A stretch of 42,321 nt of DNA, taken from assembly GCA_013202295.1 (NCBI GenBank), contig JABMRT010000238.1:1-42321 (forward strand), read 5' to 3'. The notes below the pieces were generated by a model that worked only from the letters and a program-made list of their open reading frames with translations, was not told the origin of the DNA and searched no databases. A program made the translations under genes and the position numbers. This stretch comes from Candidatus Zhuqueibacterota bacterium. Lineage in GTDB: Bacteria; Zhuqueibacterota; QNDG01; JABMRT01. Positions 20,016-35,935 of the stretch are shown piece by piece; position 1 is the first letter of the stretch; every line of letters begins with the position of its first letter.

Positions 20016-20044
20016 TTGACAAATATGGATATATTTGTTAACAT
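20016..20044 (+). promoter_or_regulatory. Promoter of the BMC operon
   Basis: TTGACA (20016-20021), a 17-bp spacer and TAACAT (20039-20044) form a near-consensus sigma70 promoter. It is the only strong promoter seen ahead of the 17-kb plus-strand operon and lies 45 bp before the regulator start codon, directly abutting the operator repeats. Confidence 0.75.
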
Positions 20045-20078
20045 GAACATGTGTTCAATATGGCAGATCATGTGTTCA
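20044..20078 (+). promoter_or_regulatory. Operator for the SorC regulator: palindrome plus direct repeat
   Basis: TGAACATGTGTTCA (20044-20057) is a perfect inverted repeat of TGAACA around a 2-bp centre. Its right part, CATGTGTTCA (20048-20057), recurs exactly at 20069-20078, a 21-bp shift or two helical turns, so both copies face the same side of DNA. The position between the -10 box and the start codon suits repression by the regulator encoded just downstream. Confidence 0.6.
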
Positions 20079-20088
20079 TGGAAAACAT

Positions 20089-21054
20089 ATGGAAATTTCT
20101 ACTGATAAATCTCTCCTCGTGGAAGTGGCTCGTCTTTACTATGATCATCAGATGAGTCAGCAGCAAATAGCTTACAGGTTGGGTACATCCCGGCCCAGCG
20201 TGTCACGATTGCTTCAGCAAGCGCGTGATGAAGGGATTGTCAGGATTGAAATTATTGATCCCACACAGAAGGGAAGCCAGCTGGAACAATCCCTGAAAGA
20301 AAGATTTCAACTTCATAAAGTGATCATTGTTCCATCTCTTAAAGAAAGCGATGCGCAAATAAAGAACAGGCTGGGTCAGGCTGCAGCCCGTTATTTAAAT
20401 GAGCTGGTTTATGATGGGTGCACTTTGGGAGTCTCCTGGGGTACAACCATGTGTCAGGTGGTCAGTCACATGATACCCAAATCTATAAAGAATATGAAAG
20501 TCGTGCAAATCGTGGGGGGCATCACCCATGGTGAGTTTGATCCCCATGCCAGTGAGATCATCCAGCGTATCAGTGAGAATTTTAAAGCACGATCTTATCT
20601 GCTGTTGCTCCCAGCCATTGTGGATAGTGTGCTGGTTAAACAAGCCATGATTTCGGATAAAAAAATCAAGGAGACGATAGATATTGCCAGACAGGCAGAT
20701 ATCTTGCTTTGTTCTGTTGGTGTCTTTAAATCCGATTCACTCATGATCCAGGCTGACTATTTTGATTCACAGGAAGTAAATTATTTAAATCAACTCGGAG
20801 CGATTGGTGATATATGTTCCCGAATGATTGATAGCGCTGGTGATATCTGCTGGCCCGAACTGGATGAACGCACTGTGGCTATTGAAATGGATGATCTGAA
20901 AAAGACAAAATACTCCATAGCCATTGCTGGCGGAGAAGAAAAAAGGGATGTAATCCACGCTGGACTCAAGGGAAGTTATTTTAATGTGCTGATTACAGAT
21001 GAAGGTGTGGCGGAATACTTATTGGAAAATGAAAATAAGATTACAGAGAAATAG
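20089..21054 (+). CDS. SorC/DeoR-type sugar-responsive transcriptional regulator of the BMC operon
   Basis: The 321-residue product has an N-terminal helix-turn-helix (about 7-45, LVEVARLYYDHQMSQQQIAYRLGTSRPSVSRLLQQA) and a SorC-type sugar-binding domain (about 60-315, related to the ISOCOT fold of sugar isomerases) with DGCTLGVSWGTTM and VVQIVGGITHGEFDPHASEI. SorC-family proteins bind phosphorylated sugars and switch catabolic operons. Being first in the operon, behind a promoter with a repeated operator, it probably represses the operon until fuculose- or rhamnulose-phosphate or a later product accumulates. The ATG at 20089 has only a weak ribosome site. Confidence 0.9.
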   Translation: MEISTDKSLLVEVARLYYDHQMSQQQIAYRLGTSRPSVSRLLQQARDEGIVRIEIIDPTQKGSQLEQSLKERFQLHKVIIVPSLKESDAQIKNRLGQAAARYLNELVYDGCTLGVSWGTTMCQVVSHMIPKSIKNMKVVQIVGGITHGEFDPHASEIIQRISENFKARSYLLLLPAIVDSVLVKQAMISDKKIKETIDIARQADILLCSVGVFKSDSLMIQADYFDSQEVNYLNQLGAIGDICSRMIDSAGDICWPELDERTVAIEMDDLKKTKYSIAIAGGEEKRDVIHAGLKGSYFNVLITDEGVAEYLLENENKITEK

Positions 21055-21057
21055 AGC

Positions 21058-21807
21058 ATGGTGAATCTTAAAGGACTCGCTTCTTATTGTCAAGATTGCG
21101 GCGCTTGCGCTGCACGTGTTTCAGAATTCAATATCTCGGGGATGGATCCCAAAATCGTTGAACGCATTGTGGATGAAGTTGTGCTCTCCATTCAAACCGA
21201 AGGATCGGACTCCGTAACTGAGACTTCCAAATCATCCATCCCATTGGGTGTCTCGAACCATCATGTTCACCTCACACAGCAAACGCTGAACATTCTATTT
21301 GGAGAAGGATCAATCCTGGAACATTACCGTCCATTATATCAGCCAGAAGATTTTGCGGCCAAACAAACAGTGACAATTGTCGGATCAAAGATGCGTGCCA
21401 TTCAAAATGTCAGGATCCTTGGTCCTTTGCGGGATTATGATCAGGTTGAAATTTCCATGACCGATGCAATCTATCTGGGGATCAAGCCGCCTGTGCGGGA
21501 TTCTGGTGATTTAGAGGGAGCCGCACCACTCACATTGGTCGGTCCCGCCGGATCGGTTTTTCTGCCCCATTGCGCAATTATTGCGGGTCGGCATCTGCAT
21601 ATGTCCAATCAGGATGCAGGAAAATTCGATGTGAAAAACGGGGATCTATGCCGTATCCGGTTACTCGGTGAAAAGCCTGCAATACTGGAGAATGTGCTCG
21701 TCCGGACGAATGATAACTGGAGGCTTCAGCTTCATCTGGATACGGACGAAGCCAATGCAACCGGCTCGATTTGCGGCGCTAAAGCAGAATTTTTAGGTAA
21801 GATGTAA
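21058..21807 (+). CDS. pduL: PduL-type phosphotransacylase with N-terminal targeting helix
   Basis: It converts acyl-CoA plus phosphate to acyl-phosphate plus CoA, here probably lactoyl-CoA, inside the BMC so that CoA is recycled in the lumen. The two zinc-binding histidine motifs of PduL are present: GVSNHHVHL (about 64-72) and AGRHLHMS (about 176-183). The 249-residue length exceeds the core domain by an N-terminal extension holding a Cys cluster (C11, C14, C17 in CQDCGAC) and an amphipathic helix (about 31-46, IVERIVDEVVLSI) that fits the encapsulation peptide pattern seen on other cargo here. It starts 3 bp after the regulator stop. Confidence 0.93.
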   Translation: MVNLKGLASYCQDCGACAARVSEFNISGMDPKIVERIVDEVVLSIQTEGSDSVTETSKSSIPLGVSNHHVHLTQQTLNILFGEGSILEHYRPLYQPEDFAAKQTVTIVGSKMRAIQNVRILGPLRDYDQVEISMTDAIYLGIKPPVRDSGDLEGAAPLTLVGPAGSVFLPHCAIIAGRHLHMSNQDAGKFDVKNGDLCRIRLLGEKPAILENVLVRTNDNWRLQLHLDTDEANATGSICGAKAEFLGKM

Positions 21808-21816
21808 GAGGAATCC

Positions 21817-22104
21817 ATGCAATTCGGAAAAGTCATCGGTCAGGTTGTATCCACACACAAAGAGAGTAATGTTCGTGGACTCCGCCTTCTTATCGTGGAT
21901 CAATTAGATGAAAAGCTCAGTCCCATTGGAAAGACAATTACCAGTACTGATACGGTCAATGCACGCATTGATGACATTGTGCTGTTGTGTTCATCCTCCT
22001 CTGCCAGGATGACTGCCATGACTGAGGGCGTGTGTACAGACAATGCAATTGTTGGGATTGTAGAAACAGTGACCAGTGCAAAATGGGATTGGTATAAAAG
22101 ATAA
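21817..22104 (+). CDS. BMC-P pentameric shell vertex protein (EutN/CcmL family), copy 1
   Basis: The 95-residue product is an EutN/CcmL-type beta-barrel that forms pentamers closing the vertices of the shell. It shows the family start FGKVIGQVVSTHKESNVRGLRLLIVDQ and the later DDIVLLCSSSSARM and NAIVGIVETV strands. It has a slightly longer C-terminal tail (SAKWDWYKR) than the other copies. The stop codon overlaps the ATG of the next gene (ATAATGC), so the two are translationally coupled. Confidence 0.93.
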   Translation: MQFGKVIGQVVSTHKESNVRGLRLLIVDQLDEKLSPIGKTITSTDTVNARIDDIVLLCSSSSARMTAMTEGVCTDNAIVGIVETVTSAKWDWYKR

Positions 22105-22409
22105 TGCAAATCTCCATCCAGGAATTGATTGCAAGGATTACCAGAGAAGTCATCGAGGAGCTAGGCCGGCAGAATGTTACGGTTACGGTTGATGGTTATC
22201 CGACTCAGACGAGTCTAAAAGGATTAGATCCTAGAACACGATCCGAAGAGCTGGATATGTCCAAATATAAAACGCCGATTCTTACGGAAAATCATATTCA
22301 AAGATTACATGAATTAACCGGAGAAATTGTTGTCCCAAAAGGGACGATAATTACACCAAAGGCCAGAGAATTATTGAGTGAAAGACAATTGAAAATAACG
22401 ATAAACTGA
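22104..22409 (+). CDS. Small BMC-associated protein with targeting helix and EutT/EutQ-like tail, function unknown
   Basis: The 101-residue product begins with an amphipathic helix (about 3-20, ELIARITREVIEEL) that matches the encapsulation-peptide pattern on the aldehyde dehydrogenase, PduL and aldolase in this operon. A linker (about 22-56) leads to a short conserved-looking segment, TPILTENHIQRLHELTGEI then VPKGTIITPKARELLSER. The latter resembles the N-terminal part of EutT-type adenosyltransferases and EutQ-related proteins (ITE...L.....I.LP....LTPSARELL), but no catalytic domain follows. It is therefore probably a lumen-targeted scaffold or accessory protein. I cannot assign a reaction. 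Confidence 0.8.
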   Translation: MQISIQELIARITREVIEELGRQNVTVTVDGYPTQTSLKGLDPRTRSEELDMSKYKTPILTENHIQRLHELTGEIVVPKGTIITPKARELLSERQLKITIN

Positions 22410-22422
22410 TTGGAGGTTTATA

Positions 22423-22701
22423 ATGCCAGGAGTTGCATTAGGATTCATTGAAACCCGGTCCAATACCGGGAATATTATTGCGATTGATGCAATGATCAAG
22501 ACTGCGAATGTGGAGCTGGTCGGAAAACATCAGATCGGAAGCGGTCTTGTCACAGCCATTGTACGTGGTGAAGTGGGCGCAGTGAAGTCCTCAGTCGAGG
22601 CAGGTTCGGAAGTGGCTGCAAAAGTAGGCGAGCTTGTGTGCGCGAATGTCATCCCATCGGCCCATGAAGATGTATTTGAGATGCTCAGAATAAAAAAGTA
22701 A
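22423..22701 (+). CDS. BMC-H hexameric shell protein, copy 1
   Basis: The 92-residue product is a single BMC domain (Pfam BMC, PduA/CcmK fold) forming hexameric shell facets. It opens GVALGFIETRSNTGNIIAIDAMIKTANVEL, with the pore loop in KHQIGSGLVTAIVRGEVGAV, so the pore carries GSG as in PduA-like shells that pass small polar metabolites. GGAGG precedes the ATG. The other two hexamers in this operon carry different pore loops. Confidence 0.95.
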   Translation: MPGVALGFIETRSNTGNIIAIDAMIKTANVELVGKHQIGSGLVTAIVRGEVGAVKSSVEAGSEVAAKVGELVCANVIPSAHEDVFEMLRIKK

Positions 22702-22725
22702 GTATATAAGTATAAAGGAGGCAAT

Positions 22726-23019
22726 ATGCAGGAAGCATTGGGAGTTATAGAAACTCTGGGGCTGGCAACGGCCATTGAAGCGGCTGATGCGGCTGTGAAG
22801 GCTGCAAATGTGAGATTGGCCGATTATCTGATTGCCGGCGGAGGTAAAGCCAATATTATCTTTCGAGGCGATGTCGCTGCTGTAAAAGCTTCGGTTGAGG
22901 CGGGTGTGGCTTCAGCCTCCCGGATTGGTCAGGTGCTCAGTCAGACGGTTATTCCAAGACCTTCTGAAAAACTGATGCCCGTTTTCAGCGAGATTCAACC
23001 CAAAGAGAATAAAGCGTAG
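22726..23019 (+). CDS. BMC-H hexameric shell protein, copy 2
   Basis: The 97-residue product is a single BMC domain: EALGVIETLGLATAIEAADA, ANVRLADYLIAGGGKANIIF, GDVAAVKASVEAG. The pore loop reads AGGGKA, glycine-rich with a lysine. AAAGGAGG lies just upstream, the strongest ribosome site in the operon, fitting a major shell component. The C-terminus has a polar tail (SEIQPKENKA). The aldehyde dehydrogenase gene follows after 12 bp. Confidence 0.95.
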   Translation: MQEALGVIETLGLATAIEAADAAVKAANVRLADYLIAGGGKANIIFRGDVAAVKASVEAGVASASRIGQVLSQTVIPRPSEKLMPVFSEIQPKENKA

Positions 23020-23031
23020 GAGAACTGTCCA

Positions 23032-24459
23032 GTGAATTTCACTGAAGAACAGATCAGCACCATTGTACGCCAGGTTGTTGAGAACATTGGCCTTCAACCT
23101 GAAGTCAACCAAACCGTCGCTCCTATTAGACATGAGAACGAATGGGGCGTGTTTGAGACTGTCGATGATGCGATTGATGCAGCGGACAAGGCGTTCCAAG
23201 AATACCAGAAATTTGGATTGCAGGATAGAAAGGCGTTCACCGATGCCATCCGGAAAATGTGCATGGAGAGGCAAGAAGAGCTATCCAGAATGGTGTTTGA
23301 AGAAACCCAGATGGGACGTTATGAAGACAAACTGCTCAAGCACCAGTTTGCTGCCAGCGAGACACCCGGAATTGAAAATCTGGAGACCACAGCCTGGTCC
23401 GGCAAAAACGGACTGGCCCTGGAGGAATGGGCACCGTATGGAATTATTGGCGCCATCACGCCAAGTACCCATCCCAGTGAGACCATGATCAATAATTCAA
23501 TTATGATGCTGGCAGCGGGGAATGTGGTCATTTTTTGTCCACACCCGTCTGCCAAGAATGTGTCGAATTATACAGTAAAACGAATCAACGAAGTTCTGGT
23601 GGATGCGGGAGCTCCAGAAAATTTGATTGTATGTGTTCAAGATCCCACTTTGGATACGGCCAAGCAAGTCTTAAACCATGAAAAAATTCGACTGCTCTCT
23701 ATCACCGGTGGGCCGGCAGTTGTCCGGGCGGCAATGAAAACGAACAAGAAGGTTATCGCGGCAGGGCCAGGCAATCCACCCGTTGTGATTGATGAAAGCG
23801 CAGATCTTGACCACGCAGCCGAGCGTATTACGCTTAGTGCAGGATTTGATAACAACATCCTCTGTACTGCAGAGAAAGAAATTTTTGTGGTTGAAAGTGT
23901 CTTTTCCGCATTTATGCAGGCCATGCAGAAACCGGGCAATGTCCTGTTAAATCAATCACAGGTAGAGCAGCTTGCACAAAAGGCTTTCGAGAAGAAGAAA
24001 TATCTCCACATTTTAAGCCGCGATCTTGTGGGACGCAACGCCAGTGTGCTTGCCAAGGCAATTGGTTTGAACATATCCGATGAAGTCTGTTTGCTGTATG
24101 GTGAAACTCAGAATGATCATGTGTTTGTGCAGGAAGAGCAGATGATGCCGTTTATCCCTGTAGTCAAGGTGAAGGATTTTGAGCAGGGTGTGCAATTGGC
24201 TTTGGAGGCAGAGCATGGATATGGCCATACGGCCAGCGTGTTTACGAACAATATGACACGCGCTACCGATTTTGCCAAACGGGCGAATTGCTCCATTTTT
24301 GTGATCAATGGAGGCACATTTCAAGGCAATGGCGGCGAGCAGGGTGAAGGAACACTTGCCTTCACAATCGCGACACCGACAGGAGAAGGCATTACCCGTC
24401 CGACTGATTTTGCCCGAATTAGAAGGATTATGAATGTAGGTTCATTTCGATTTGTATAA
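23032..24459 (+). CDS. pduP: CoA-acylating aldehyde dehydrogenase (PduP-like), BMC cargo
   Basis: It oxidises an aldehyde with NAD+ and CoA to acyl-CoA; here the aldehyde is most likely L-lactaldehyde, giving lactoyl-CoA. The start is GTG 23032, with TAGGAG upstream. Residues 5-20 (EEQISTIVRQVVENIG) are an amphipathic encapsulation peptide joined by a linker to the ALDH domain. The catalytic Cys is about 278 in GFDNNILCTAEKEIF, and AAGPGNPPVVID and ITGGPAVVRAA are cofactor-loop motifs of the PduP/EutE class. The 475-residue length is normal for PduP. It belongs to the core of the pathway. Confidence 0.94.
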   Translation: MNFTEEQISTIVRQVVENIGLQPEVNQTVAPIRHENEWGVFETVDDAIDAADKAFQEYQKFGLQDRKAFTDAIRKMCMERQEELSRMVFEETQMGRYEDKLLKHQFAASETPGIENLETTAWSGKNGLALEEWAPYGIIGAITPSTHPSETMINNSIMMLAAGNVVIFCPHPSAKNVSNYTVKRINEVLVDAGAPENLIVCVQDPTLDTAKQVLNHEKIRLLSITGGPAVVRAAMKTNKKVIAAGPGNPPVVIDESADLDHAAERITLSAGFDNNILCTAEKEIFVVESVFSAFMQAMQKPGNVLLNQSQVEQLAQKAFEKKKYLHILSRDLVGRNASVLAKAIGLNISDEVCLLYGETQNDHVFVQEEQMMPFIPVVKVKDFEQGVQLALEAEHGYGHTASVFTNNMTRATDFAKRANCSIFVINGGTFQGNGGEQGEGTLAFTIATPTGEGITRPTDFARIRRIMNVGSFRFV

Positions 24460-24489: not shown

Positions 24490-24765
24490 ATGTCAACTGT
24501 CAAATCAATCGGTATTCTGGAAACGGACGGATTCGTTCCCTTGATTGAGGGTGCGGACGCAGCAGTGAAAGCAGCCAATGTGGATATGATCGAATGGCGA
24601 AAAATCGGAAAGGCGTATGTGTCGTTCGTGATTGAAGGCGAGGTTGCTGCTGTGAGATCAGCCATCGAAGCGGGCAGAACTGCGGCATCAGCAGTCGGAA
24701 CCGTAATCTCGGAAATCGTCATTCCCAGACCCGTAGATGAGCTGAAAACCACCTGGAAGAAATAG
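24490..24765 (+). CDS. BMC-H hexameric shell protein, copy 3
   Basis: The 91-residue product is a single BMC domain: KSIGILETDGFVPLIEGADA, WRKIGKAYVSFVIEGEVAAV, AIEAGRTAASAVGTVISEIV. The pore loop KIGKAYVS differs from the GSG and GGGK loops of the other hexamers and could give another permeability. CAGGAGGTC precedes the ATG. It is followed by a stem-loop at 24790-24810 before the pentamer genes. Confidence 0.95.
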   Translation: MSTVKSIGILETDGFVPLIEGADAAVKAANVDMIEWRKIGKAYVSFVIEGEVAAVRSAIEAGRTAASAVGTVISEIVIPRPVDELKTTWKK

Positions 24766-24843: not shown

Positions 24844-25158
24844 ATGATATTCGCAAAAGTCATTGGTACTGTGGTGTCAACCCAGAAAGATCCAAAGCTA
24901 ACGGGCAAGAAACTTCTTCTCTGTAAAGAAACAGATCATTCAGGGAAGCCGCTCGATACCTATCATGTGGCTGTGGATGCGGTTCAGGCTGGAGAGGGTG
25001 ATTTTGTACTGCTAACCTATGGTTCGGCTGCCCGGATGACGGATCTCACAAAAGATGCTCCTATAGATGCAGTGATCATGGCAGTGATTGATGAGGTCAC
25101 GATCGAACAAGAAATTTCCGTCACGCCTGAGCAGGTAAGGCCAAAGGGTATGGAATGA
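24844..25158 (+). CDS. BMC-P pentameric shell vertex protein, copy 2
   Basis: The 104-residue product has the EutN/CcmL fold: FAKVIGTVVSTQKDPKLTGKKLLLC, DAVQAGEGDFVLLTYGSAARM, PIDAVIMAVIDEV. It has a C-terminal extension (EQEISVTPEQVRPKGME) not seen in the other pentamers. CGGAGAAAGA precedes the ATG. The stop overlaps the next ATG by 4 bp (ATGA), so translation of copies 2 and 3 is coupled. Confidence 0.94.
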   Translation: MIFAKVIGTVVSTQKDPKLTGKKLLLCKETDHSGKPLDTYHVAVDAVQAGEGDFVLLTYGSAARMTDLTKDAPIDAVIMAVIDEVTIEQEISVTPEQVRPKGME

Positions 25159-25418
25159 AACTAGGAAAAGTGATCGGACAGGTCTGGGCTATAAATAAGG
25201 TGCATCAGGTGCACTCATGCCGGTTCTTTGTGGTCCAACCTCTGACCAGTCAGAATAAAAATGTCAGGCATCCCCTGGTTGTGGCAGACCCAAAAAATAT
25301 GGCGGGAGTTGGAGACAGAATCATCTATGTAACCAACACTGACGCGACCCAGGCGTTCGATACAGGCATCGCCCCGGTCAATGCAGCCATTGTCGAACTG
25401 GTAGATTTTGTGGATTAA
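25155..25418 (+). CDS. BMC-P pentameric shell vertex protein, copy 3
   Basis: The 87-residue product is the shortest of the four pentamers: LGKVIGQVWAINKVHQVHSCRFFVV, GVGDRIIYVTNTDATQAF, PVNAAIVELVDFVD. The conserved GVGD turn and the C-terminal AAIVELVD strand place it in the EutN/CcmL family. It overlaps the preceding gene by 4 bp and is 5 bp from the next. The sequence is clearly diverged from copies 1, 2 and 4, so these are old paralogues, not recent duplicates. Confidence 0.93.
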   Translation: MKLGKVIGQVWAINKVHQVHSCRFFVVQPLTSQNKNVRHPLVVADPKNMAGVGDRIIYVTNTDATQAFDTGIAPVNAAIVELVDFVD

Positions 25419-25423
25419 ATGAT

Positions 25424-25702
25424 ATGTTTCTAGCAAAAATTAAAAATACGATTACAGCCACTGAGAAGCATGATGCGTATCAAAACCGGCATGTGTTTAT
25501 TGTCCAGCCCATTCTCCCGGACGGTAGAGAACAGGGTGATGAATGGGTGGCTATCGATTGTGTTGGAGCCGGGATTGGGGATACGGTGGTTTGCGGTGGA
25601 GCACCCGGAGTGGCCAGGGATCTTTTCCATCTCGATCTGGCTCCCATCCGGACCCTCATTGTGGCCATTGTGGATGAAATCGATTATCGAGATATCCAAT
25701 AA
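25424..25702 (+). CDS. BMC-P pentameric shell vertex protein, copy 4
   Basis: The 92-residue product has the EutN/CcmL pattern: LAKIKNTITATEKHDAYQNRHVFIVQ, DCVGAGIGDTVVCGGAPGVAR, PIRTLIVAIVDEIDY. Four pentamer genes for one shell suggest that vertices differ, or that heteropentamers form. It is followed by a 32-bp gap and the PduS-like gene. Confidence 0.93.
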   Translation: MFLAKIKNTITATEKHDAYQNRHVFIVQPILPDGREQGDEWVAIDCVGAGIGDTVVCGGAPGVARDLFHLDLAPIRTLIVAIVDEIDYRDIQ

Positions 25703-25734: not shown

Positions 25735-27033
25735 ATGACGATCCAGAATATAAAAAACAAAGGCATTGTTGGAGCCGGTGGTGCCGGATTTCCCACACAT
25801 ATCAAACTGCAAGCGTGTCCTGATGTGCTGATTATGAATGCGGCTGAATGTGAACCTCTGCTTCATAAGGACAAAGAACTCCTGCTTCATTTTACTGACG
25901 AAATCCTTGAGGGATTCCGGATTGCACTGTCTCTCACCGGTGCCAAGAGGGGCATCATCGGAATTAAAGAAAAGCATCATGCATTGATTGATCTGCTAAA
26001 AAGCAGGATTTCACAATTCATGGAAGTCATGCCCATCGGTGATTTTTATCCAGCCGGGGATGAAGTGATTCTGATCTATTTAACCACTGGCCGAATCATC
26101 CAACCGGGTCAATTGCCAATCAGTGAAGGGTGTGTTGTCCAAAATGTCGAGACATTATACAACTTGGCGCAATCCGAACCGCTAACGGATAAGTTTCTCA
26201 CCATTGCCGGTGAGGTCGACAAGCCACTCACTGTGAAAGTCCCAATCGGCACATCATTTCGAGATGTCTTGTCCCATTTTGATATCACCACGCGTAATGC
26301 ACAAGTGCGATCCGGTGGATTGATGATGGGCATTCTTGAATCAAGCCTGGATGCTGTCGTGACCAAGACCACCGGTGGATTGATACTGCTGCCGTCAGAT
26401 CATGCTTGCATCACAATGTATCAGCGATACGCCACACCCGATCAAACCGATCGTATGGCCAAAGCGGCGTGTGATCAGTGCAGTTTCTGCACAGAACTCT
26501 GTCCAAGATATCTTCTCGGACACCCGGTTCGCCCGGAGATTGCAATGCGCAATCGCATGTTTACACGGCAGGACATGTCCTATCATCACAATGGCAATGC
26601 TTTCTGCTGCGAATGCAATTTGTGCACAATGTACAGCTGTCCCGAAGGTTTGGATCCAAAAGGCGCGACAGTGATTGAGAAGAAGATGAGCCGTGATTTT
26701 CCTTCGTGGGGAGGTTTGCCCGTGACATCCCATCCTCTAATGAATTATAGGAAAGTCCCAACCCAAAAACTTAAACAGCGTCTTGACATCATCCGTTACA
26801 GGGATGAAGGCCCGTTATCCGATCTGAAAATCGAACCGAAATTTGTACGTATTCCATTGAAGCAGCACATCGGCACTCCGGCAAAATCCGTTGTAAAATT
26901 AGATCAGCAGATAAAAAGAAATGATCTCATTGCAGAAGCAGATGGAGAGATTTCTGTGCCAGTACATGCATCCGTTGACGGAACAGTTTTTGAGATTACT
27001 GAAAATGAAATTGTGATACAGAGGCAACCATGA
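25735..27033 (+). CDS. pduS: PduS-like flavin/iron-sulfur electron-transfer protein (RnfC/SLBB family)
   Basis: The 432-residue product has the RnfC/Nqo1-type FMN-NADH region (about 8-130, GIVGAGGAGFPTHIK, NAAECEPLLHKD), an SLBB domain (about 155-205), then two ferredoxin-like clusters: C246, C249, C252, C256 (CDQCSFCTELCPR) and C291/292, C294, C297, C302 (CCECNLCTMYSCP). PduS of propanediol compartments oxidises NADH and was first described as a cobalamin reductase. There is no B12-dependent enzyme gene here, so an electron-export role is more likely. The gene overlaps the PduT-like shell gene by 4 bp, matching the known PduS-PduT partnership. Confidence 0.88.
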   Translation: MTIQNIKNKGIVGAGGAGFPTHIKLQACPDVLIMNAAECEPLLHKDKELLLHFTDEILEGFRIALSLTGAKRGIIGIKEKHHALIDLLKSRISQFMEVMPIGDFYPAGDEVILIYLTTGRIIQPGQLPISEGCVVQNVETLYNLAQSEPLTDKFLTIAGEVDKPLTVKVPIGTSFRDVLSHFDITTRNAQVRSGGLMMGILESSLDAVVTKTTGGLILLPSDHACITMYQRYATPDQTDRMAKAACDQCSFCTELCPRYLLGHPVRPEIAMRNRMFTRQDMSYHHNGNAFCCECNLCTMYSCPEGLDPKGATVIEKKMSRDFPSWGGLPVTSHPLMNYRKVPTQKLKQRLDIIRYRDEGPLSDLKIEPKFVRIPLKQHIGTPAKSVVKLDQQIKRNDLIAEADGEISVPVHASVDGTVFEITENEIVIQRQP

Positions 27034-27590
27034 AAACATCGAATGCCATCGGCGTCATTGAACTTGCGAGTCTGTATAAAGGATTCGAGGTTCAGGATGC
27101 GGTATTAAAAATGACAAAGATTGAGAAGCTGCTGGCCCGGACGATCTGCTCGGGGAAATATGTCATCCTGGTTCGTGGGGAAATTGCAGATGTGGAAGCT
27201 TGTATTCTCCACGCCAAAGAAACGGGTGGATTTGCTATAGTCAATGCGTTGATGATTCCCAATGTGGATGAAAAGGTTTTCCCGGCCATCGCTGGCACAA
27301 CTACTTTAGACAGTCCTGAAGTGGATGGACTGGCTGTCATCGAGAGTTTTTCTGTAGCATCGGCCATTAAAGCGGCTGATTTCGCAGTCAAAGAAGCGGA
27401 TATTGTTTTATTGCGCATTCATATGGCCATGGCCATCGGTGGTAAGGGATTGGTGGTGATGACTGGAAATATTGATGCACTCAAGTCGGCATTGAATCCG
27501 GCCCTTGAATTTCTCAAAGAAGAAGGGCTGCTTGCGGGATCCACATTGATCACACAACCACATCCTGATGTGATGAGGGATTTGTTATAA
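27030..27590 (+). CDS. pduT: PduT-like tandem-domain BMC-T shell protein with pore cysteine
   Basis: The 186-residue product has two BMC domains in tandem (about 5-85 and 98-182) and forms trimers that occupy a hexamer position. The first domain has ARTICSGKYVILVRGEIADV, aligning with SKTICPGKF of Salmonella PduT, where Cys38 binds a [4Fe-4S] cluster in the central pore; here it is Cys40. The second has VHMA-like HMAMAIGGKGLVVMTGNID. It is thus probably a redox-active pore that takes electrons from PduS. It overlaps the PduS-like gene by 4 bp. Confidence 0.9.
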   Translation: MKTSNAIGVIELASLYKGFEVQDAVLKMTKIEKLLARTICSGKYVILVRGEIADVEACILHAKETGGFAIVNALMIPNVDEKVFPAIAGTTTLDSPEVDGLAVIESFSVASAIKAADFAVKEADIVLLRIHMAMAIGGKGLVVMTGNIDALKSALNPALEFLKEEGLLAGSTLITQPHPDVMRDLL

Positions 27591-27653: not shown

Positions 27654-29066
27654 ATGTATAACAAAGTCGATGCATCCATCATAGAGAAGCTCACAGAGAT
27701 TGTTGGGAAATCCAATGTTGTAACCGATAGAGAAGATTTACTCGATTATTCCCATGATGAGTACAGCCTGGATGACATTGCTGCCTATCCGGATGTGGTT
27801 GTCAAACCTCAGGATGTCGAAGCGGTATCGAAAATTGTCAAGTTATGTAATGCCAATAAAATTCCTCTCACAGCCCGGGGAAGTGGTACGGGTCTATGTG
27901 GCGCGTGCGTGCCCTCTTTTGGCGGCGTGGTGATCACATTTGAAAATATGCAGCACATTATCGAAATCGATGCGCAAAACCTGACAGCCACTGTAGAGTC
28001 GGGATTGATGCTCATGGATTTCTATCCGGCGATTGAACAGAAAGGTCTCTTTTTTCCACCGCATCCGGGAGATGAGTCAGCTACAGTAGGCGGCGTGATT
28101 GCCACCAATGCGGGCGGAGCCAGAGCCGTGAAGTATGGTGTTATCCGAAATTTTGTGACAGGGATCGAAGTGGTGCTCCCTAATGGAGAGATTGTGAACT
28201 TCGGGGGCAAGTTTGTCAAGAACTCCACAGGATACAGCCTGATGCACCTGATGATCGGTTCGGAAGGTACGCTGGGCATTATCACCAAAGCGACCATTGC
28301 CTTGATGGCGCCACCCAAAGAAATCATGACTCTGGTTGTCCCTTACGAAAATCTGCACGATGCGATCAGCACAGTACCTGCGATTATCGAGAAGAAGATT
28401 CTGCCTATGGCCGTCGAATTTCTTGAACGGGAAACCGCTGTGCTGAGCGGCGAACATCTAAATAAGACATGGCCCTGTGCGCAAGGCAAGGCCCATTTGA
28501 TGATTATCGTGGATGGTTCCAGGGAAGAGGAAGTGATGAATTTGGCGGAAACCATCAGCGAAGTATGCCTGGCCAACAACGCCCTGGATGTGTTTATTGC
28601 GGACACCAAATCCAAGCAAAAAGATATTCTGGATATACGCAGCGGTATTTATGAAGCCATGCGAAATTATATGTTAGAGATTCTGGATATCACCGTACCC
28701 CGGTCACAGATTGCCCATTTCGTGGATGCCGTAAATGAAGTGGCTGTAAAATCGGGAATGTGGCTGCCCACATACGGCCATGCGGCTGATGGAAATGTGC
28801 ATACCCATTTAATGCGCTATCAATGGCAGGATGGCAAATGGATTGAAATTGAAAACTGGGAAGAGAAATACCAGACTGTGCGAAAGGAACTCCACGATCT
28901 GGGTAAAAAATATAAGGGGATTTGCTCAGGCGAACATGGGATTGGCATTGTAAAAAAGGAATATTTAAAGTCATTCCTGGAGCCGGAACAGATCGAATTG
29001 ATGCGCGGCATTAAGAAGACCTTTGATCCCAATACTATTCTGAATCCGGGAAAGATATTTGACTGA
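27654..29066 (+). CDS. FAD-linked D-lactate/glycolate-type dehydrogenase (GlcD family)
   Basis: The 470-residue product is a FAD_binding_4/FAD-oxidase_C enzyme: PP-loop PLTARGSGTGLCGACVPSFGG (about 75-95), FAD contacts HPGDESATVGGVIATNAGGA (about 137-156), and the C-terminal GHAADGNVH and CSGEHGIGIVKKEYL. Such enzymes oxidise D-lactate, glycolate or other 2-hydroxyacids to 2-oxoacids using FAD. In this operon, beside a LarA homologue, the best guess is D-lactate to pyruvate. The electron acceptor is not encoded here unless it is the PduS/PduT chain. ACGGAGG precedes the ATG. It has no targeting helix like the cargo enzymes, so it probably works outside the shell. Confidence 0.9.
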   Translation: MYNKVDASIIEKLTEIVGKSNVVTDREDLLDYSHDEYSLDDIAAYPDVVVKPQDVEAVSKIVKLCNANKIPLTARGSGTGLCGACVPSFGGVVITFENMQHIIEIDAQNLTATVESGLMLMDFYPAIEQKGLFFPPHPGDESATVGGVIATNAGGARAVKYGVIRNFVTGIEVVLPNGEIVNFGGKFVKNSTGYSLMHLMIGSEGTLGIITKATIALMAPPKEIMTLVVPYENLHDAISTVPAIIEKKILPMAVEFLERETAVLSGEHLNKTWPCAQGKAHLMIIVDGSREEEVMNLAETISEVCLANNALDVFIADTKSKQKDILDIRSGIYEAMRNYMLEILDITVPRSQIAHFVDAVNEVAVKSGMWLPTYGHAADGNVHTHLMRYQWQDGKWIEIENWEEKYQTVRKELHDLGKKYKGICSGEHGIGIVKKEYLKSFLEPEQIELMRGIKKTFDPNTILNPGKIFD

Positions 29067-29136: not shown

Positions 29137-29907
29137 ATGATCAGCAATGAATGGCAGATCAAACAGCTTATCATAGACATAGGAAAACGGCTGTGGCAGC
29201 GGGAGTTTATTGCCGCCAATGACGGCAATATCACTGTCCGTATCGATGATAACCGACTATTGACCACACCCACCGGTGTCAGTAAAGGTTTCATGACCCC
29301 GGACATGATTATTGAAATGGACATGGGTGGTAAAATTCTATCCCAAACAAAACATTACCGTCCATCCAGTGAAGTCAAAATGCACATTGAGGTCTATAAG
29401 CAGCGGGAGGATATCCGATCTGTGGTGCACGCCCATCCACCGGTCTGCACCAGCTTTGCAGTGGCCGGAATTCCTTTGAATAAGTGTGTACTTCCTGAAG
29501 CTGTTCTGACATTGGGCGCTGTGCCCATTGCACCCTACGGTACACCCTCCACCATGGAAATTCCGGACTCTATCAAACCCTACCTGCAAAACAGTGATGC
29601 CATCCTTCTAGCCAATCACGGTGCACTGACTCTGGGAACCGATCTGATCAATGCCTATCATCGCATGGAAACTCTGGAGCATTCTGCTAAAATCGTATTT
29701 ACGGCTATTCAACTTGGCAATGTGAACATGATTCCAGGCCCCGAAGTGGAAAAACTCATGGAACTCAGGGAAAAACTCAATATTCCAGGGCGGGTGAGCA
29801 TGTGCGCGGAAAATGGTTCATGTGAAAATCAGCAGTCCGCTTCACCCAATGATGACCAGATCGCAGAAATTACCAAACTGGTGATGGAGCGGTTGAAGAA
29901 GTCATGA
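29137..29907 (+). CDS. fucA: Class II aldolase (L-fuculose/L-rhamnulose-1-phosphate type), BMC cargo
   Basis: The zinc-dependent enzyme splits L-fuculose-1-phosphate (and perhaps rhamnulose-1-phosphate) into DHAP and L-lactaldehyde. The start at ATG 29137 is chosen for AAAGGA upstream; an in-frame start at 29059 adds a low-complexity leader and is rejected. Zinc and catalytic residues are visible: E79 in SSEVKMH, H98 and H100 in VVHAHPP, H161 in LLANHGALTLG. The aldolase core ends near residue 220. A linker then leads to a C-terminal amphipathic helix (about 239-254, QIAEITKLVMERL), an encapsulation peptide like that on PVM-type BMC aldolases. The 256-residue length is longer than E. coli FucA (215) because of this tail. 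Confidence 0.93.
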   Translation: MISNEWQIKQLIIDIGKRLWQREFIAANDGNITVRIDDNRLLTTPTGVSKGFMTPDMIIEMDMGGKILSQTKHYRPSSEVKMHIEVYKQREDIRSVVHAHPPVCTSFAVAGIPLNKCVLPEAVLTLGAVPIAPYGTPSTMEIPDSIKPYLQNSDAILLANHGALTLGTDLINAYHRMETLEHSAKIVFTAIQLGNVNMIPGPEVEKLMELREKLNIPGRVSMCAENGSCENQQSASPNDDQIAEITKLVMERLKKS

Positions 29908-29944: not shown

Positions 29945-31114
29945 TTGAAAATTCTCATCGCCAATCCAGGTAGCACATCATATAAATGCAAACTGTATGA
30001 CATGGCCGATGAGACGATCCTGTTTCAGGCAGTTGTTGAGCGTATTGGGGATCAGGAAAGTCCAGTATCCTGGCAATTCGGAGAGTTGGATAAGCAAAAG
30101 AAGGTCTTAGCTATTCCCGATTGTATGACTGCTGTGGATCAAATACTGAACATCCTTCAGCAGAAATATCCTCTCAAGGATATAGCAGCTGTGGGTTTTA
30201 AGACGGTTCATGCCAAAGATGTAAGTGGCTGTGTGGAGCTCACAGATGAAGTATTGGATGCAATGAGAGCATATGCTCCACTGGTGCCTGTCCACAATGC
30301 TGTGTATTTAACAGCCATTGAAGCTTTTAAAAATGTTCTGCCAGATACTCCACGAATTGGACTTTTTGAGACACACTTTCATCAAGATATTCCAATGGAA
30401 GCAGCCATGTATGGAGTACCCTACGAATGGGTTGAAAAACATGGTGTTCGCAAGTACGGATTTCATGGCGCTTCCCATCGATACATTGCTGGACGTGCTA
30501 AAACATTGTATAATGCGGACAAGGTGATCTCCTGTCACTTAGGAGGTAGTGCTTCGGTATGTGCAATCCGGGATGGAAAGTCTATTGATACATCCATGGG
30601 AATGAGCGCTCAGTGTGGTTTGCTGAATGCCAAGCGGGTTGGAGATCTCGATCCCTTTGCATTGCTCTATGTTATGGAAGAGGAAAACCTGTCCATCGAT
30701 CAGGTCCGAGAGTGTCTGATATCCCGTGCCGGACTGCTTGGCCTCTCTGGATTGAGTGGCGATTTGAGAGATATTGAAGAGGTCATGGAGCAAAATCCAA
30801 AAGCTAAACTGGCTTTCAAAACGTTTGCCTATGGGGTGAAGCGATATATCGGAGAATACATCGCTGCTTTGAATGGTGCGGATCTGGTTGCTTTTACGGG
30901 TGGTGGTGGACAATTTTCACCGCTATTACGTTCCGAAATTCTAAAAGACATGAATAACCTCGGGATTGTCCTTGATCATGATAGAAATGAAAACAATCCT
31001 AAGGAAGGATTAATCTCAGCAGAAGATTCGAAAATTAAAATATCAGTTCTCCCAACCAATGAAGAGTTGATCGTAGCTCGGGAAGTCGCTCAAAAATTAA
31101 CAGAGCTTTCCTGA
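29945..31114 (+). CDS. ackA: Acetate kinase family protein, probable lactoyl-phosphate kinase
   Basis: The 389-residue product has the acetokinase fold; start TTG 29945 with AAGGAGATGG upstream. It would turn an acyl-phosphate and ADP into acid and ATP, the energy-yielding end of the BMC pathway. Conserved: N7 (NPGSTS), H174 (KYGFHGASH), R231 (AKRVGDLDP) and the PTNEE motif. Changed relative to Methanosarcina acetate kinase: Arg91 -> K86 (GFKTVH for GHRVVH), Asp148 -> E142 (FETHFH for FDTAFH), Asn211 -> G201 (HLGGSAS for HLGNGSS), and the GIGENS nucleotide motif -> GGGQFS. A different acyl substrate such as lactoyl-phosphate would fit. It has no targeting helix, so ATP is probably made outside the shell. 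Confidence 0.88.
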   Translation: MKILIANPGSTSYKCKLYDMADETILFQAVVERIGDQESPVSWQFGELDKQKKVLAIPDCMTAVDQILNILQQKYPLKDIAAVGFKTVHAKDVSGCVELTDEVLDAMRAYAPLVPVHNAVYLTAIEAFKNVLPDTPRIGLFETHFHQDIPMEAAMYGVPYEWVEKHGVRKYGFHGASHRYIAGRAKTLYNADKVISCHLGGSASVCAIRDGKSIDTSMGMSAQCGLLNAKRVGDLDPFALLYVMEEENLSIDQVRECLISRAGLLGLSGLSGDLRDIEEVMEQNPKAKLAFKTFAYGVKRYIGEYIAALNGADLVAFTGGGGQFSPLLRSEILKDMNNLGIVLDHDRNENNPKEGLISAEDSKIKISVLPTNEELIVAREVAQKLTELS

Positions 31115-31174
31115 AACTTCCATTTTTATTTAAATCACATATTCCGTTTCAAATCCAAGATAGAAATATTTGGG

Positions 31175-31212
31175 TTTTGGATATTGAAAAATATTTGTAT
31201 TTTGGATATTGA
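31175..31212 (+). repeat. Direct repeat upstream of the larA homologue, possible internal promoter
   Basis: TTTTGGATATTGA occurs at 31175-31187 and 31200-31212, a 25-bp period. The stretch TTTG-N18-TATTTTGG within it resembles the TTTG/TAnnTTTG promoter form with one base less spacing. The 114-129 bp gap here is the largest in the operon, so a second promoter or operator for larA-fucI-kinase is possible. Confidence 0.35.
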
Positions 31213-31243
31213 TGATTGAAAATATTTATTGTCGGGAATAACG

Positions 31244-32521
31244 ATGGCCACATTCAACCTTCCTTATCACAAATCTCATATTCAATTTGAAATTCCAGAT
31301 CATCTGGTTGCAGGGTGTCTTGAATCGAGAGTCAATGTGCATCAATCCGATTTGAGTCAGGTTGAGATCATTCATCAAGCATTGGATTGTCCTGTTTTTG
31401 GTCCAACCCTCGAATCTCTAGTAGAAGGTAATAAGCGGATGACTCTGATTACCAGCGATCACACGCGACCTGTTCCGAGCTGGTTGACTCTGCCAATTCT
31501 GCTTGAACGCATCCGAAAGATTGAACCGTCCATTGAAATTACAATATTGGTTGCCACAGGTTATCATCGCGAAACAACTCAGGATGAAATGGTTGCTCTG
31601 TTCGGTGAGAAGATCGTTTCTGAAGAGAGTATTGTCATCCATGACTCAAGAGATGATGCCTCTCTTGTGCAGGTCGGCGTTCTGCCTTCAGGGGGAGAGT
31701 TGTGGATCAATCGACTGGCTGTGGAAACCGATCTGCTCATGGCTGAAGGATTCATAGAACCCCATTTCTTTGCCGGTTATTCCGGTGGGCGAAAAAGCGT
31801 ATTGCCCGGTGTTGCAGGATATAAAACTGTGCTCGCCAACCACTGTTCCGAATTTATCGCCAGTGATCATGCACGTACCGGCATCCTGGATCACAATCCC
31901 ATTCATCATGATATGATCTATGCGGCTCAACAGGTTAATCTTAAATTTATCCTTAACGTGATTCTCAATGATAAAAAGGAAGTCATCCATGCTGTGGCCG
32001 GAGACATGGAGAAGGCCCACCATGAGGGATGCGCTTTTTTAAGTCGTTTGTGTCAGGTCGATCGTGTTCCTGCAGATATTGTGATTACGAGCAATGGCGG
32101 TTATCCGCTGGATCAAAATATTTATCAATCGGTAAAAGGCATGACTGCTGCCGAGGCCATGGCCAATGAGGGTGGTGTGATCATCATGGTTGCGGCGTGT
32201 AATGACGGGCATGGAGGAGAGTCCTTCTTTAAAAATATGGCCGAAGCCAGCCATCCCCAGGAAGTGCTTGAAAGGGCGCTTCAGATATCCCGAGATGAAA
32301 CTGTGCCAGATCAGTGGGAATATCAAATTTTGGCAAGAATCCTGGACCGGTTCCGAGTCATTCTTGTGACGGATATGTGTGATCCATCACTTATTAAAGC
32401 CATGCATCTGGATCATGCACAAACTATTGAAGACGCGCTGGACCAGGCCCGCAGAATTAAAGGTGAAGAGGCCAAAATCGCCGTCATCCCGGATGGGGTG
32501 AGTGTGATTGTAAAGTCATGA
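31244..32521 (+). CDS. larA: LarA-family nickel-pincer racemase, probable lactate racemase
   Basis: Starting at ATG 31244 gives 425 residues. The residues known for Lactiplantibacillus plantarum LarA then fall at the same numbers: D72 and R75 (SDHTRP), H108 (ATGYHRE), H174 (IEPHFFAGYSGG), K184 (GGRKSVLPG, the covalent site for the nickel-pincer cofactor) and H200 (VLANH). All active-site residues I know are intact. LarA interconverts L- and D-lactate. In this operon it would turn L-lactate from L-lactaldehyde into D-lactate for the FAD dehydrogenase. A TTG at 31229 lacks a ribosome site. Cofactor genes larB, larC and larE are not in the window. Other 2-hydroxyacid substrates remain possible for LarA homologues. 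Confidence 0.9.
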   Translation: MATFNLPYHKSHIQFEIPDHLVAGCLESRVNVHQSDLSQVEIIHQALDCPVFGPTLESLVEGNKRMTLITSDHTRPVPSWLTLPILLERIRKIEPSIEITILVATGYHRETTQDEMVALFGEKIVSEESIVIHDSRDDASLVQVGVLPSGGELWINRLAVETDLLMAEGFIEPHFFAGYSGGRKSVLPGVAGYKTVLANHCSEFIASDHARTGILDHNPIHHDMIYAAQQVNLKFILNVILNDKKEVIHAVAGDMEKAHHEGCAFLSRLCQVDRVPADIVITSNGGYPLDQNIYQSVKGMTAAEAMANEGGVIIMVAACNDGHGGESFFKNMAEASHPQEVLERALQISRDETVPDQWEYQILARILDRFRVILVTDMCDPSLIKAMHLDHAQTIEDALDQARRIKGEEAKIAVIPDGVSVIVKS

Positions 32522-32609: not shown

Positions 32610-34421
32610 ATGTTCAGTCTGAAACAGAATCCGCCGGTTCAACGTCTGAGGGGATCCTTGCCGAAAATCGGAATTCGACCGGTTATTGACGGCCGTCGAA
32701 AAGGTGTGCGGGAAGCGCTTGAGGATCAGACCATGAATATGGCAAAATCCGCGGCAGAATTTCTTTCCGGGAATTTACGCCATTCCAATGGACTCCCTGT
32801 TGAATGCATTATTGCTGATTCCTGTATTGGCGGTGTGGCTGAAGCGGCAGATTGTGCTGAGAAATTCCAGCGTGAGGGAGTTGGCGTATCATTAACCGTA
32901 ACGCCTGCCTGGTGTTATGGCACAGAGGTGATGGATACGGATCCATTCATTCCCAAAGCGGTTTGGGGATTTAATGGAACCGAGCGTCCGGGCGCTGTCT
33001 ATCTGGCAGCTGCTCTTGCCGGATATACACAAAAAGGGCTACCCACATTCGGTATTTATGGCCGAGATGTGCAGGACGCGGATGATACATCCATCCCAAA
33101 GGATGTACAAGAAAAACTACTTCTCTTCACCAAAGCAGGATTGGCAGTAGCTGAGATGCGTGGAAAATCCTATCTTTCGATGGGCTCTGTATCCATGGGC
33201 ATTGCCGGTTCTATGGTGGATGATCATCTTTTTTCCGATTTTTTCGGAATGCGCAATGAAACCGTGGACATGACGGAATTTATTCGGCGCATGGAAGAGG
33301 GCATTTACGATCCGAATGAATTTGAAATTGCGTTGAAATGGGTGAAAGTAAATTGTCCAGAGGGTGAAGATACCAATCCGGAAGACAAACAGTCCTCCCG
33401 TGAGCGCAAGGATGAGGAGTGGGAAATTGTTGTGAAGATGGCGCTTATTGCACGGGATTTGATGGTGGGAAATCCTGCTTTGGAAAAACTGGGATGGGGT
33501 GAAGAAGCGTTGGGGCACAATGCTATTGCCTCCGGATTTCAGGGGCAACGCCAGTGGACCGATCATTGGCCCAATGGCGATTTTCTTGAAGCGATTCTCA
33601 ACTCATCATTTGACTGGAACGGCATCCGGCAACCTTATATCGTAGCCACAGAAAACGACGCACTCAATGGCGTGGCCATGCTATTCGGGCATTTGCTCAC
33701 AGACACAGCTCAGATATTCTCTGATGTTCGCACCTATTGGAGTCCAACCGCAGTCAAACGAGTAACCGGCCATCAACTCATGGGCAGAGCCGAAAATGGC
33801 ATTATCCATCTCATTAATTCTGGCCCCACCGCACTGGATGGCACAGGAGAACAATCCATTGATGGCATGCCGGCTATTAAACCATTCTGGGAGATCACAC
33901 CAGAGGAAGTAGATCACTGTCTGAAAGCCACAAAATGGTGTCAGGCCGAGCTGGAATGTTTTCGTGGTGGGGGATATTCCACCCAGTTCCTGACCAAAGG
34001 AGACATGCCAGTAACCATGTCTCGTATCAATCTGGTCAAAGATCTTGGGCCCGTGCTTCAAATCGCTGAAGGATATACAGTTGATCTTCCAGCAGATGTC
34101 CATGAAAAACTCAACCGACGTACTAGCCCAACATGGCCCACGACCTGGTTTGCACCGAATTTAACGGGCCAAGGCGCTTTCTCTAACGTTTATTCTGTCA
34201 TGGCCAATTGGGGTGCCAATCACGGCGCCATCAGTTTCGGTCATATCGGGGATAAACTGATTACCCTGGCAGCTATACTACGCATTCCAGTGAATATGCA
34301 CAATGTGTCTGAAGACCGGATTTTTCGTCCCTCTGCATGGAATGCGTTTGGCACCGAAAATCTGGAGGGTGCGGATTATCGGGCATGTCAAAATTATGGA
34401 CCCTTATACGGGATGAAATAA
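32610..34421 (+). CDS. fucI: L-fucose isomerase
   Basis: It isomerises L-fucose (also D-arabinose) to L-fuculose with a divalent metal. The 603-residue product is close to E. coli FucI (591). Metal ligands correspond with a shift of 10-11: E348 ([12 protein letters not shown]. coli E337), D372 ([11 protein letters not shown]361) and H538 ([18 protein letters not shown]528). The ends [18 protein letters not shown] and [14 protein letters not shown] are also typical. GAGGAGTC precedes the ATG. It supplies the ketose for the next gene's kinase. No rhaA-like isomerase is present, so fucose is the best supported substrate of the operon. Confidence 0.96.
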
Positions 34422-34456: not shown

Positions 34457-35935
34457 ATGTTATCCAATCAATACATTGCTGTGGATTTTGGCGCGTCGAG
34501 CGGCCGTGTCATGCTTGCCGAGATTGATCAGACGATCCATCTTCAGGAGATGCACCGCTTTCCCAATTATCCCATTCTGAATCTTGGCCACTCTCAGTGG
34601 GATCTTCTCGGACTATTTAACGAGATGAAGCAGGGATTATCCAAGATCGCTTCTTCCGGGACTCAGAATATCCAAAGCATCGGAGTGGATACGTGGGGTG
34701 TGGATTTTGGATTCATCGGTCGGGATGATGTGATTCTTGGCAATCCCTACTGCTACCGCGATAGTCGCACACAGGGCATGATGGAGAAGGCCTTTCAGAA
34801 GTTTTCTAAGACCGGGATTTACTCTGCCACCGGTGTTCAATTTATGGAACTCAATTCTCTTTTCCAACTCTTAAGCATGGTCGAGGCAAGACATCCTATT
34901 CTCGATGTCGCTGAAACATTACTTTTCATGCCGGATCTGTTTCATTTCATGCTAACCGGTGAGCGGAAATCTGAATATACGATTGCGTCCACATCCCAGT
35001 TGCTCAATGCGCTTGACCGTCAATGGGATGTCGGTCTGTTTAATGCGCTTGAGCTTCCGATCAATCTCATGGCTGACCTTGTCCAATCCGGATCGGTTCT
35101 GGGCTCACTTCGAAATGAGATTCAGGAGGAGACCGGATTGAAAGTGCAACAGGTGATTGCTCCGGCTTCTCACGATACAGCGAGCGCGGTGGCTGCGGTT
35201 CCGGCGGTTCATGATAAATCCTGGGCCTATCTCAGTTCCGGTACATGGTCATTGATGGGCGTCGAATTGGAAACTCCCTTGATTAACTCCGAAACCCTGG
35301 AGCGTAACTATACCAATGAAGGTGGGGTGGATGGAAGCATCCGCTTTCTTAAAAACGTTACAGGCATGTGGTTGCTGGAAGAATGCCGAAGGCAATGGGG
35401 AGGGGAGTCCAGCGTTTCGTACGATTCGTTGTTGAAGGAGGCGGATGCTTCAGAGCCGTTCCGATGCCTGATTTATCCGGATGATCCCCAATTTGTAAAC
35501 CCGCCTGATATGGTCAAAGCGATTCAGGATTTCTGTAAAAACACGAATCAACCCACTCCTGAATCACAGGGTCAATTCATCCGATGTATTTTTGAAAGTC
35601 TTGCATTGCGGTATCGGCAAGTTATTGAGGATCTCAATTATTTACATAATCGTAAAATCGAAATTCTTTATGTGGTTGGTGGCGGCAGTCGGAACACCAT
35701 GCTCAATCAATTCACAGCGGATGCACTAGGGATTCCTGTTTTAGCCGGGCCGATTGAAGCGACCGCACTTGGGAATGTGATCATACAGGCCGTTGCAACC
35801 GGGCAATTGGAATCTATTCAGGCGGGACGCAGGATGATCGCCGACTCTTTTCCGGTTCGGGATTTTTTACCTCATGAGACGGAGCCCTGGGATGAGGCGT
35901 ATGAGCGATTTCATAAGATATTAAAAGACAGCTAA
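34457..35935 (+). CDS. rhaB: Rhamnulokinase-type (RhaB/FucK, FGGY family) sugar kinase
   Basis: It phosphorylates L-rhamnulose or L-fuculose at C1 with ATP. Starting at ATG 34457 (GGGGA upstream) gives 492 residues, matching RhaB (489). The motifs are of the rhamnulokinase type: AVDFGASSGRVMLAEI, SIGVDTWGVDFGFI, NPYCYRDSRTQGMME, APASHDTASAVAAVP (catalytic Asp), AYLSSGTWSLMGVE and YVVGGGSRNTMLNQFTADA. Paired with FucI rather than RhaA, it may accept fuculose, or both ketoses. It starts 35 bp after fucI. Confidence 0.88.
   Translation: MLSNQYIAVDFGASSGRVMLAEIDQTIHLQEMHRFPNYPILNLGHSQWDLLGLFNEMKQGLSKIASSGTQNIQSIGVDTWGVDFGFIGRDDVILGNPYCYRDSRTQGMMEKAFQKFSKTGIYSATGVQFMELNSLFQLLSMVEARHPILDVAETLLFMPDLFHFMLTGERKSEYTIASTSQLLNALDRQWDVGLFNALELPINLMADLVQSGSVLGSLRNEIQEETGLKVQQVIAPASHDTASAVAAVPAVHDKSWAYLSSGTWSLMGVELETPLINSETLERNYTNEGGVDGSIRFLKNVTGMWLLEECRRQWGGESSVSYDSLLKEADASEPFRCLIYPDDPQFVNPPDMVKAIQDFCKNTNQPTPESQGQFIRCIFESLALRYRQVIEDLNYLHNRKIEILYVVGGGSRNTMLNQFTADALGIPVLAGPIEATALGNVIIQAVATGQLESIQAGRRMIADSFPVRDFLPHETEPWDEAYERFHKILKDS

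Follow-up and report, generated by a model that had tools for sequence, protein, structure and literature searches.

The window analysed here, a stretch of 42,321 nucleotides, comes from a genome (5.15 Mb, 95.65% complete) that most likely belongs to the candidate phylum KSB1. It carries the only BMC locus of that genome, with no BMC genes detected outside it. One operon encodes a regulator, shell proteins, compartment enzymes and enzymes of sugar metabolism (Table 1), in a gene order common to KSB1 and Ignavibacteriota relatives. The shell is encoded by four BMC-P and three BMC-H genes in addition to a PduT-like gene. The 101-aa protein is kept at the same place in the KSB1 and Ignavibacteriota loci, and the aldolase retains the invariant residues and the conserved C-terminal helix of the aldolase alignment. 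The best PDB match of the lactate dehydrogenase was LctD (7qh2_C, E 9e-126, 423 bits), the runner-up scoring 233 bits. Judged by its sequence, the compartment is a fucose/rhamnose class-II-aldolase BMC of the PVM-like type.

Table 1. Features of the aldolase microcompartment locus, in positions of the window.
Feature	Position	Strand	Evidence
Probable operator (TGAACATGTGTTCA, with a further degenerate copy) for the SorC-family regulator	20044..20080	.	Inverted repeat; motif recurs before the regulator gene in L048 and L056
SorC/DeoR-type sugar-binding transcriptional regulator	20089..21054	+	PF04198 E 1.9e-73; DeoR model NF053881 E 6e-106, under cut-off
PduL phosphotransacylase, encapsulation peptide, N-terminal CxxCxxC extension	21058..21807	+	PF06130 E 5e-67; NF011652 over cut-off
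BMC-P vertex protein (EutN/CcmL family)	21817..22104	+	PF03319 E 9e-23
101-aa protein, encapsulation-peptide-like N-terminus	22104..22409	+	Weak TIGR02536 match
Two BMC-H shell proteins (22423-22701 and 22726-23019)	22423..23019	+	PF00936
CoA-acylating aldehyde dehydrogenase, N-terminal encapsulation peptide	23032..24459	+	PF00171; NF011927 593 bits, cut-off 403
BMC-H shell protein	24490..24765	+	PF00936
Three BMC-P vertex proteins (24844-25158, 25155-25418, 25424-25702)	24844..25702	+	First: EutN/CcmL-family models; other two: named by sequence resemblance and position
PduS-like NADH:acceptor flavoprotein	25735..27033	+	FMN loop GAGGAGFP, two four-Cys motifs, domains, RnfC-like model
PduT-like BMC-T shell protein	27030..27590	+	Cys40 codon 27147-27149, two BMC domains, model nearest PduT 3pac
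FAD lactate dehydrogenase, LctD-like	27654..29066	+	PF01565, PF02913; LctD 7qh2_C
Class II aldolase (fuculose/rhamnulose-1-phosphate aldolase), C-terminal encapsulation peptide	29137..29907	+	PF00596
AckA acyl kinase	29945..31114	+	TIGR00016 361 bits, cut-off 293
LarA nickel-dependent lactate racemase	31229..32521	+	NF033504 636 bits, cut-off 460
L-fucose isomerase	32610..34421	+	TIGR01089 over cut-off
Rhamnulokinase/fuculokinase-type sugar kinase	34457..35935	+	TIGR02627 530 bits, cut-off 528

Two further details of the locus were observed. The PduL protein begins with MVNxKGLASYCQxCGxC, a CxxCxxC segment placed before the encapsulation peptide, in the window and in five related loci (L048, L049, L053, L054, and L056); in these KSB1 type-A loci it is a possible metal or cluster site. 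The larA gene lies three genes downstream of the lctD-like gene, and the gap between ackA and larA (31115-31228) contains short, repeated AT-rich units (ATATTTG...TTTTGGATATTGA).

A candidate operator, TGAACATNTGTTCA, was predicted from three loci, in each of which it is found upstream of the regulator. Its exact sequence occurs twice in the genome, in front of this operon and within a 770-aa ORF that resembles a gyrase/topoisomerase subunit. Among matches across the genome, the operon copy is the sole intergenic one directly upstream of a gene. Sites with one mismatch lie within genes or do not precede an alcohol dehydrogenase (ADH) gene, and none of the intergenic copies adjoins an ADH gene anywhere in the genome.

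The PduS-like protein (432 aa) has the domain order Complex1_51K, SLBB, Fer4_17 dicluster, and C-terminal RnfC_N, which is the four-domain layout of PduS, with a weak SLBB match that slightly misses the Pfam cut-off (E 3.6e-5, 24.0 bits against 27). Both cysteine clusters are complete: C246xxC249xxC252xxxC256 follows the pattern CxxCxxCxxxC, and C291xxC294xxC297xxxxC302 the pattern CxxCxxCxxxxC. All eight cysteines are kept in 28 of the 29 KSB1 proteins compared (window copy included), and the FMN-loop motif is retained in the window protein. No encapsulation peptide was recognisable in PduS, which counts against the export reading given below. The structure model is confident (pLDDT 89.6) and lies nearest to the Rnf-complex subunit RnfC, with an NADH-bound structure (9eri_C) among the matches. 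Based on these motifs and the RnfC-like predicted fold, oxidation of NADH through FMN and two [4Fe-4S] clusters is plausible. The Citrobacter PduS is an NADH oxidoreductase with FMN and two [4Fe-4S] clusters, and it co-purifies with PduT (PMC2982820).

The PduT-like protein (186 aa) contains two tandem BMC domains and is PduT-like in both sequence and fold. The nearest solved structures by sequence are those of PduT (3pac, 3n79), and 3pac also ranked first when the model was compared by fold (TM 0.89-0.91). The TIGR02526 model covers the full length of the protein (E 4e-30), yet its score stays under the equivalog cut-off (105 against 250 bits). Cys40 falls at the cluster cysteine in the alignment, and 30 of 30 KSB1 PduT-like proteins have it, the window copy included. 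Its surroundings (C40-S-G-K-Y) fit the conserved pore pattern C-P/S/A-G-K-Y/F, and a CSGKY-type motif has been given for cluster-binding PduT (Ferlez et al.; PMC6325248). Cys40 is expected to sit at the trimer pore. The preliminary description of this DNA had reported the pore cysteine, both PduS cysteine clusters and a 4-bp overlap of the two genes; all of these were borne out, the overlap being the shared ATGA.

The same description held that neither a cobalamin enzyme nor an ADH is encoded in the operon, and the ORF list together with Pfam and NCBIfam domains agrees. It also considered that such genes might lie elsewhere, under the same regulator or with targeting peptides. The first case is rejected for ADH as far as the operator predicted from three loci can show, since the other operator-like sites are intragenic or do not precede an ADH gene; the predicted operator stands upstream of this operon only. 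As to the second, ADHs are present in the genome; however, none of the nine ADH-type proteins examined has an N-terminal targeting extension, and the Fe-ADH homologues and six Zn-ADH homologues begin right at the enzyme domain. With no other BMC genes in the genome, a targeted ADH is ruled out among these homologues; the search consisted of two family queries, which another dehydrogenase whose targeting signal is cryptic could escape, and about 4% of the genome, where a gene may be hidden, is missing. Among the identified operon genes there is also no lactate/malate dehydrogenase that could regenerate NAD+ in the shell.

Taken together, the gene content suggests the following scheme. Isomerase, kinase, and the aldolase with its encapsulation peptide would produce lactaldehyde from fucose or rhamnose. 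The aldehyde dehydrogenase is expected to form lactyl-CoA and NADH, and lactyl-CoA would be converted via lactyl-phosphate to L-lactate, with a gain of ATP. LarA would then turn L-lactate into D-lactate, which the LctD-type enzyme would oxidise to pyruvate. The presence of the ackA, lctD-like and larA genes argues for an oxidative fate of lactaldehyde, with lactate and pyruvate as the products. Since no in-shell ADH was found, the luminal NADH would not be recycled by such an enzyme. Instead, PduS may dock at PduT on the lumen-facing side of the shell, oxidise NADH by way of its FMN and two [4Fe-4S] clusters, and hand the electrons singly to a [4Fe-4S] cluster in the PduT pore, from which a cytosolic acceptor would collect them, NAD+ being thereby restored in the lumen. 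The parts and residues are in place at the locus; we infer the PduT cluster, PduS docking, electron direction and acceptor from Pdu homologues. Export is the simplest direction because the formation of NADH by the aldehyde dehydrogenase is the sole evident luminal redox reaction. We regard the chances as about even that this is an oxidative fucose/rhamnose aldolase compartment that exports electrons of luminal NADH via PduS and PduT. A stricter version is put forward more tentatively. It would be a respiring metabolosome with no internal fermentative balance, in which the entire NADH output leaves as electrons through the PduS-PduT FeS pore and lactaldehyde undergoes complete oxidation to lactate and pyruvate instead of yielding 1,2-propanediol plus lactate; we rate the two parts jointly at somewhat under an even chance.

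The genome also encodes an RnfC-like protein and EtfAB. LctD is a component of the lactate dehydrogenase (NAD+, ferredoxin) complex, in which EtfAB is its partner; the only EtfAB pair of this genome is on a separate contig (C250), adjoining a membrane FeS protein. No link was found between the RnfC-like protein or EtfAB and PduT.

For comparison, 80 related loci from a genome collection were sorted by gene content together with the KSB1 loci; the collected set includes no Planctomycetota or Verrucomicrobiota, and statements on PVM loci come from the literature. The core is complete in 62 loci. Both ADH and dehydratase are lacking in 24 of these, all with AckA (24/24) and nearly all with PduS plus PduT (23/24), and the ADH-free loci with the pair span KSB1, Ignavibacteriota, Myxococcota, and Bacillota. 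ADH is encoded in 37 of the 62, where AckA is found in 3/37 and PduS plus PduT in 33/37; the one leftover locus has a glycyl-radical enzyme (GRE), and ADH was not detected in it. On the aldolase tree the state changes twice for ADH and three times for AckA, and tests on independent pairs are without power. Because two changes suffice, the ADH split is a feature of lineages rather than of repeated convergence, and it provides no statistical proof that PduS-PduT replaces ADH. A role of ADH loss in driving the retention of the pair likewise has no statistical support, the pair being common in both groups and the changes too few.

Several ADH-free loci contain LutA/LutB genes for L-lactate oxidation; the window has LarA and the LctD-like enzyme instead. 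This substitution supports lactate as the product, and both arrangements fit a route from lactaldehyde over L-lactate to pyruvate. Other arrangements were noted among the relatives. Nine KSB1 loci (L058-L063, L066, L070, and L071) have a lone PduS-PduT pair that has no recognisable BMC genes nearby and retains every cluster cysteine. A second KSB1 type of aldolase compartment encodes, before pduS, a protein with an encapsulation-peptide-like N-terminus (L067 8429-9160, L068 8550-9284); the L067 protein is RpiB-like in its C-terminal part and distinct from the 101-aa protein seen in the window.

The preliminary description had offered electron export as a coherent alternative to cobalamin reduction. 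Its coherence withstood the genome checks; that PduS and PduT stand in for an ADH does not follow from their presence, given their retention in most ADH loci. For this reason, and with only about two changes on the tree, the co-occurrence is no proof of export. The pair might instead have a minor part, such as flavin reduction, redox poise, or shell structure, if NADH and NAD+ are swapped with the cytosol through other pores or if an internal dehydrogenase is hidden. The occurrence of PduS and PduT with or without ADH speaks for this explanation, as do the untargeted ADHs of the genome and a Melioribacter roseus MAG locus (L080), where the aldolase compartment comes with the same enzymes but lacks PduS, PduT, and ADH, and where LutB/LutC-like genes lie downstream. 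The retention of the pair in all but one of the ADH-free loci over four phyla, with every pore cysteine kept in KSB1, is above the level expected of a minor role and therefore counts against it. We consider this explanation rather unlikely.

Citrobacter PduS reduces cobalamin (PMC2982820), and PduS could have the same function here for a B12 enzyme encoded elsewhere, or could be a relic of a pdu operon. The search of the genome, which among B12 enzymes covered diol dehydratase and EutB, gave no match to the B12 diol dehydratase pduC (PF02286), although the same search was positive in four of four control genomes that carry it, and none to the ethanolamine lyase EutB, for which Escherichia coli served as positive control. 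A remote client of either of these two kinds is thus rejected for the assembled part of the genome. A B12 diol dehydratase was found in just one of 82 KSB1 genomes; a full-length PduT match (E <= 5e-35) was found in 42 of the 82. The PduO/GlcG cluster of Clostridial loci is missing from the loci without ADH and dehydratase, and conservation of the cluster cysteines across KSB1 homologues is not expected of a relic. Cobalamin reduction for a B12 enzyme encoded elsewhere, or a relic, is accordingly very improbable.

Electrons might also flow inward, from a cytosolic donor to PduT, with PduS spending them on reduction or repair in the lumen. For GRM compartments, such a flow has been put forward as a means of activating the GRE (PMC6325248). 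However, no GRE, activating enzyme, or cobalamin enzyme was found in the operon, so no luminal consumer of electrons is known, and the aldehyde dehydrogenase should generate NADH inside. The potential of the PduT cluster in the Pdu system (+99 mV; PMC6325248) favours electron acceptance. We hold inward flow to be highly improbable. The sole full-length GRE of the genome (L039 1084-3462, with an activating enzyme) is the trans-4-hydroxy-L-proline dehydratase HypD by an NCBIfam equivalog over its cut-off and by the nearest structure (6vxc), which rules it out as a hidden diol dehydratase; it suggests hydroxyproline use. The idea, raised at one time for Roseburia and Clostridium phytofermentans (PMC3557285; discussed in PMC4207490), that PduS acts as the lactaldehyde reductase (1,2-propanediol oxidoreductase) is scarcely credible here, as the PduS domains are those of an RnfC-related NADH-FMN-FeS electron carrier with no alcohol dehydrogenase domain, and loci with a dehydratase have a separate Zn-ADH.

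The long-standing question of whether any microcompartment conducts electrons across its shell is hard to test cleanly in Pdu and GRM systems, where cobalamin reduction, the activation of a GRE, or an alcohol dehydrogenase inside the shell interferes; the aldolase-only type has none of these, and the locus is a clean case for testing the published export idea. A genetic test would be possible because some of the related loci come from named isolates: Moorella mulderi (L144), Moorella sulfitireducens (L088), and Paradesulfitobacterium ferrireducens (L117). If the proposal is true, export would replace the model of internal redox balance for a compartment class present in at least four phyla.

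The idea of electron export is already in print (Parsons 2010; Axen 2014; Ferlez 2019; Burrichter 2021). For GRM1, both a PduS without B12 enzymes and electron transfer through PduT were proposed (Axen 2014; PMC4207490); PduS/PduT electron transfer has been reviewed for GRM types (Ferlez 2019; PMC6325248), and the same argument has been made for the isethionate GRM, which lacks both B12 and ADH (Burrichter 2021; PMC8667426). The framing given above is thus not new. Ethanolamine compartments of Listeria have been tied to extracellular electron transfer.

Among known systems, PVM-like and PVM loci (Axen 2014, PMC4207490; Sutter 2021, PMC8217296) share with the window the class II aldolase with an encapsulation peptide, the acylating aldehyde dehydrogenase, PduL, AckA, several BMC-P proteins, and the fucose/rhamnose context; in PVM-like loci an alcohol dehydrogenase is mostly absent, as here. 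PVM compartments proper are thought to use a lactate/malate dehydrogenase reductase in the shell, whereas the window has none, and has PduS, PduT, LarA and the LctD-type enzyme. The isethionate GRM of Bilophila wadsworthia (PMC8667426) is likewise B12-free and lacks an alcohol dehydrogenase while encoding PduS and PduT; its signature enzyme, however, is a GRE with an activating enzyme. The signature enzyme here is an aldolase, so GRE activation does not explain PduS and PduT. The fucose/rhamnose type GRM5 (Petit 2013, PMC3557285; Ferlez 2019, PMC6325248) has the aldolase, aldehyde dehydrogenase, PduL, PduS, and PduT in common with the window; it differs in having a diol-dehydratase GRE and a Zn-ADH and in making propionate and propanol. 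Neither enzyme is encoded at the locus, nor is the activating enzyme that defines GRM5 together with its GRE, and AckA and lactate oxidation are found instead. With the Pdu system of Salmonella and Citrobacter the locus shares the four-domain architecture of PduS, the PduT fold, the pore cysteine, and the tandem genes, though PduCDE, PduO, and reactivase are lacking. The cluster cysteines of PduS start at residue 246 here, against 264 in Citrobacter (PMC2982820), hence the window protein is somewhat shorter before the clusters. No prior description of a PduS-PduT compartment that lacks both a GRE and a cobalamin enzyme and has a lactate-oxidation module was found in the literature consulted, mostly outside subscription papers. 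What is new here is a version of the compartment that has neither a B12 enzyme nor a glycyl-radical enzyme to account for PduS, and that adds a lactate-oxidation module.
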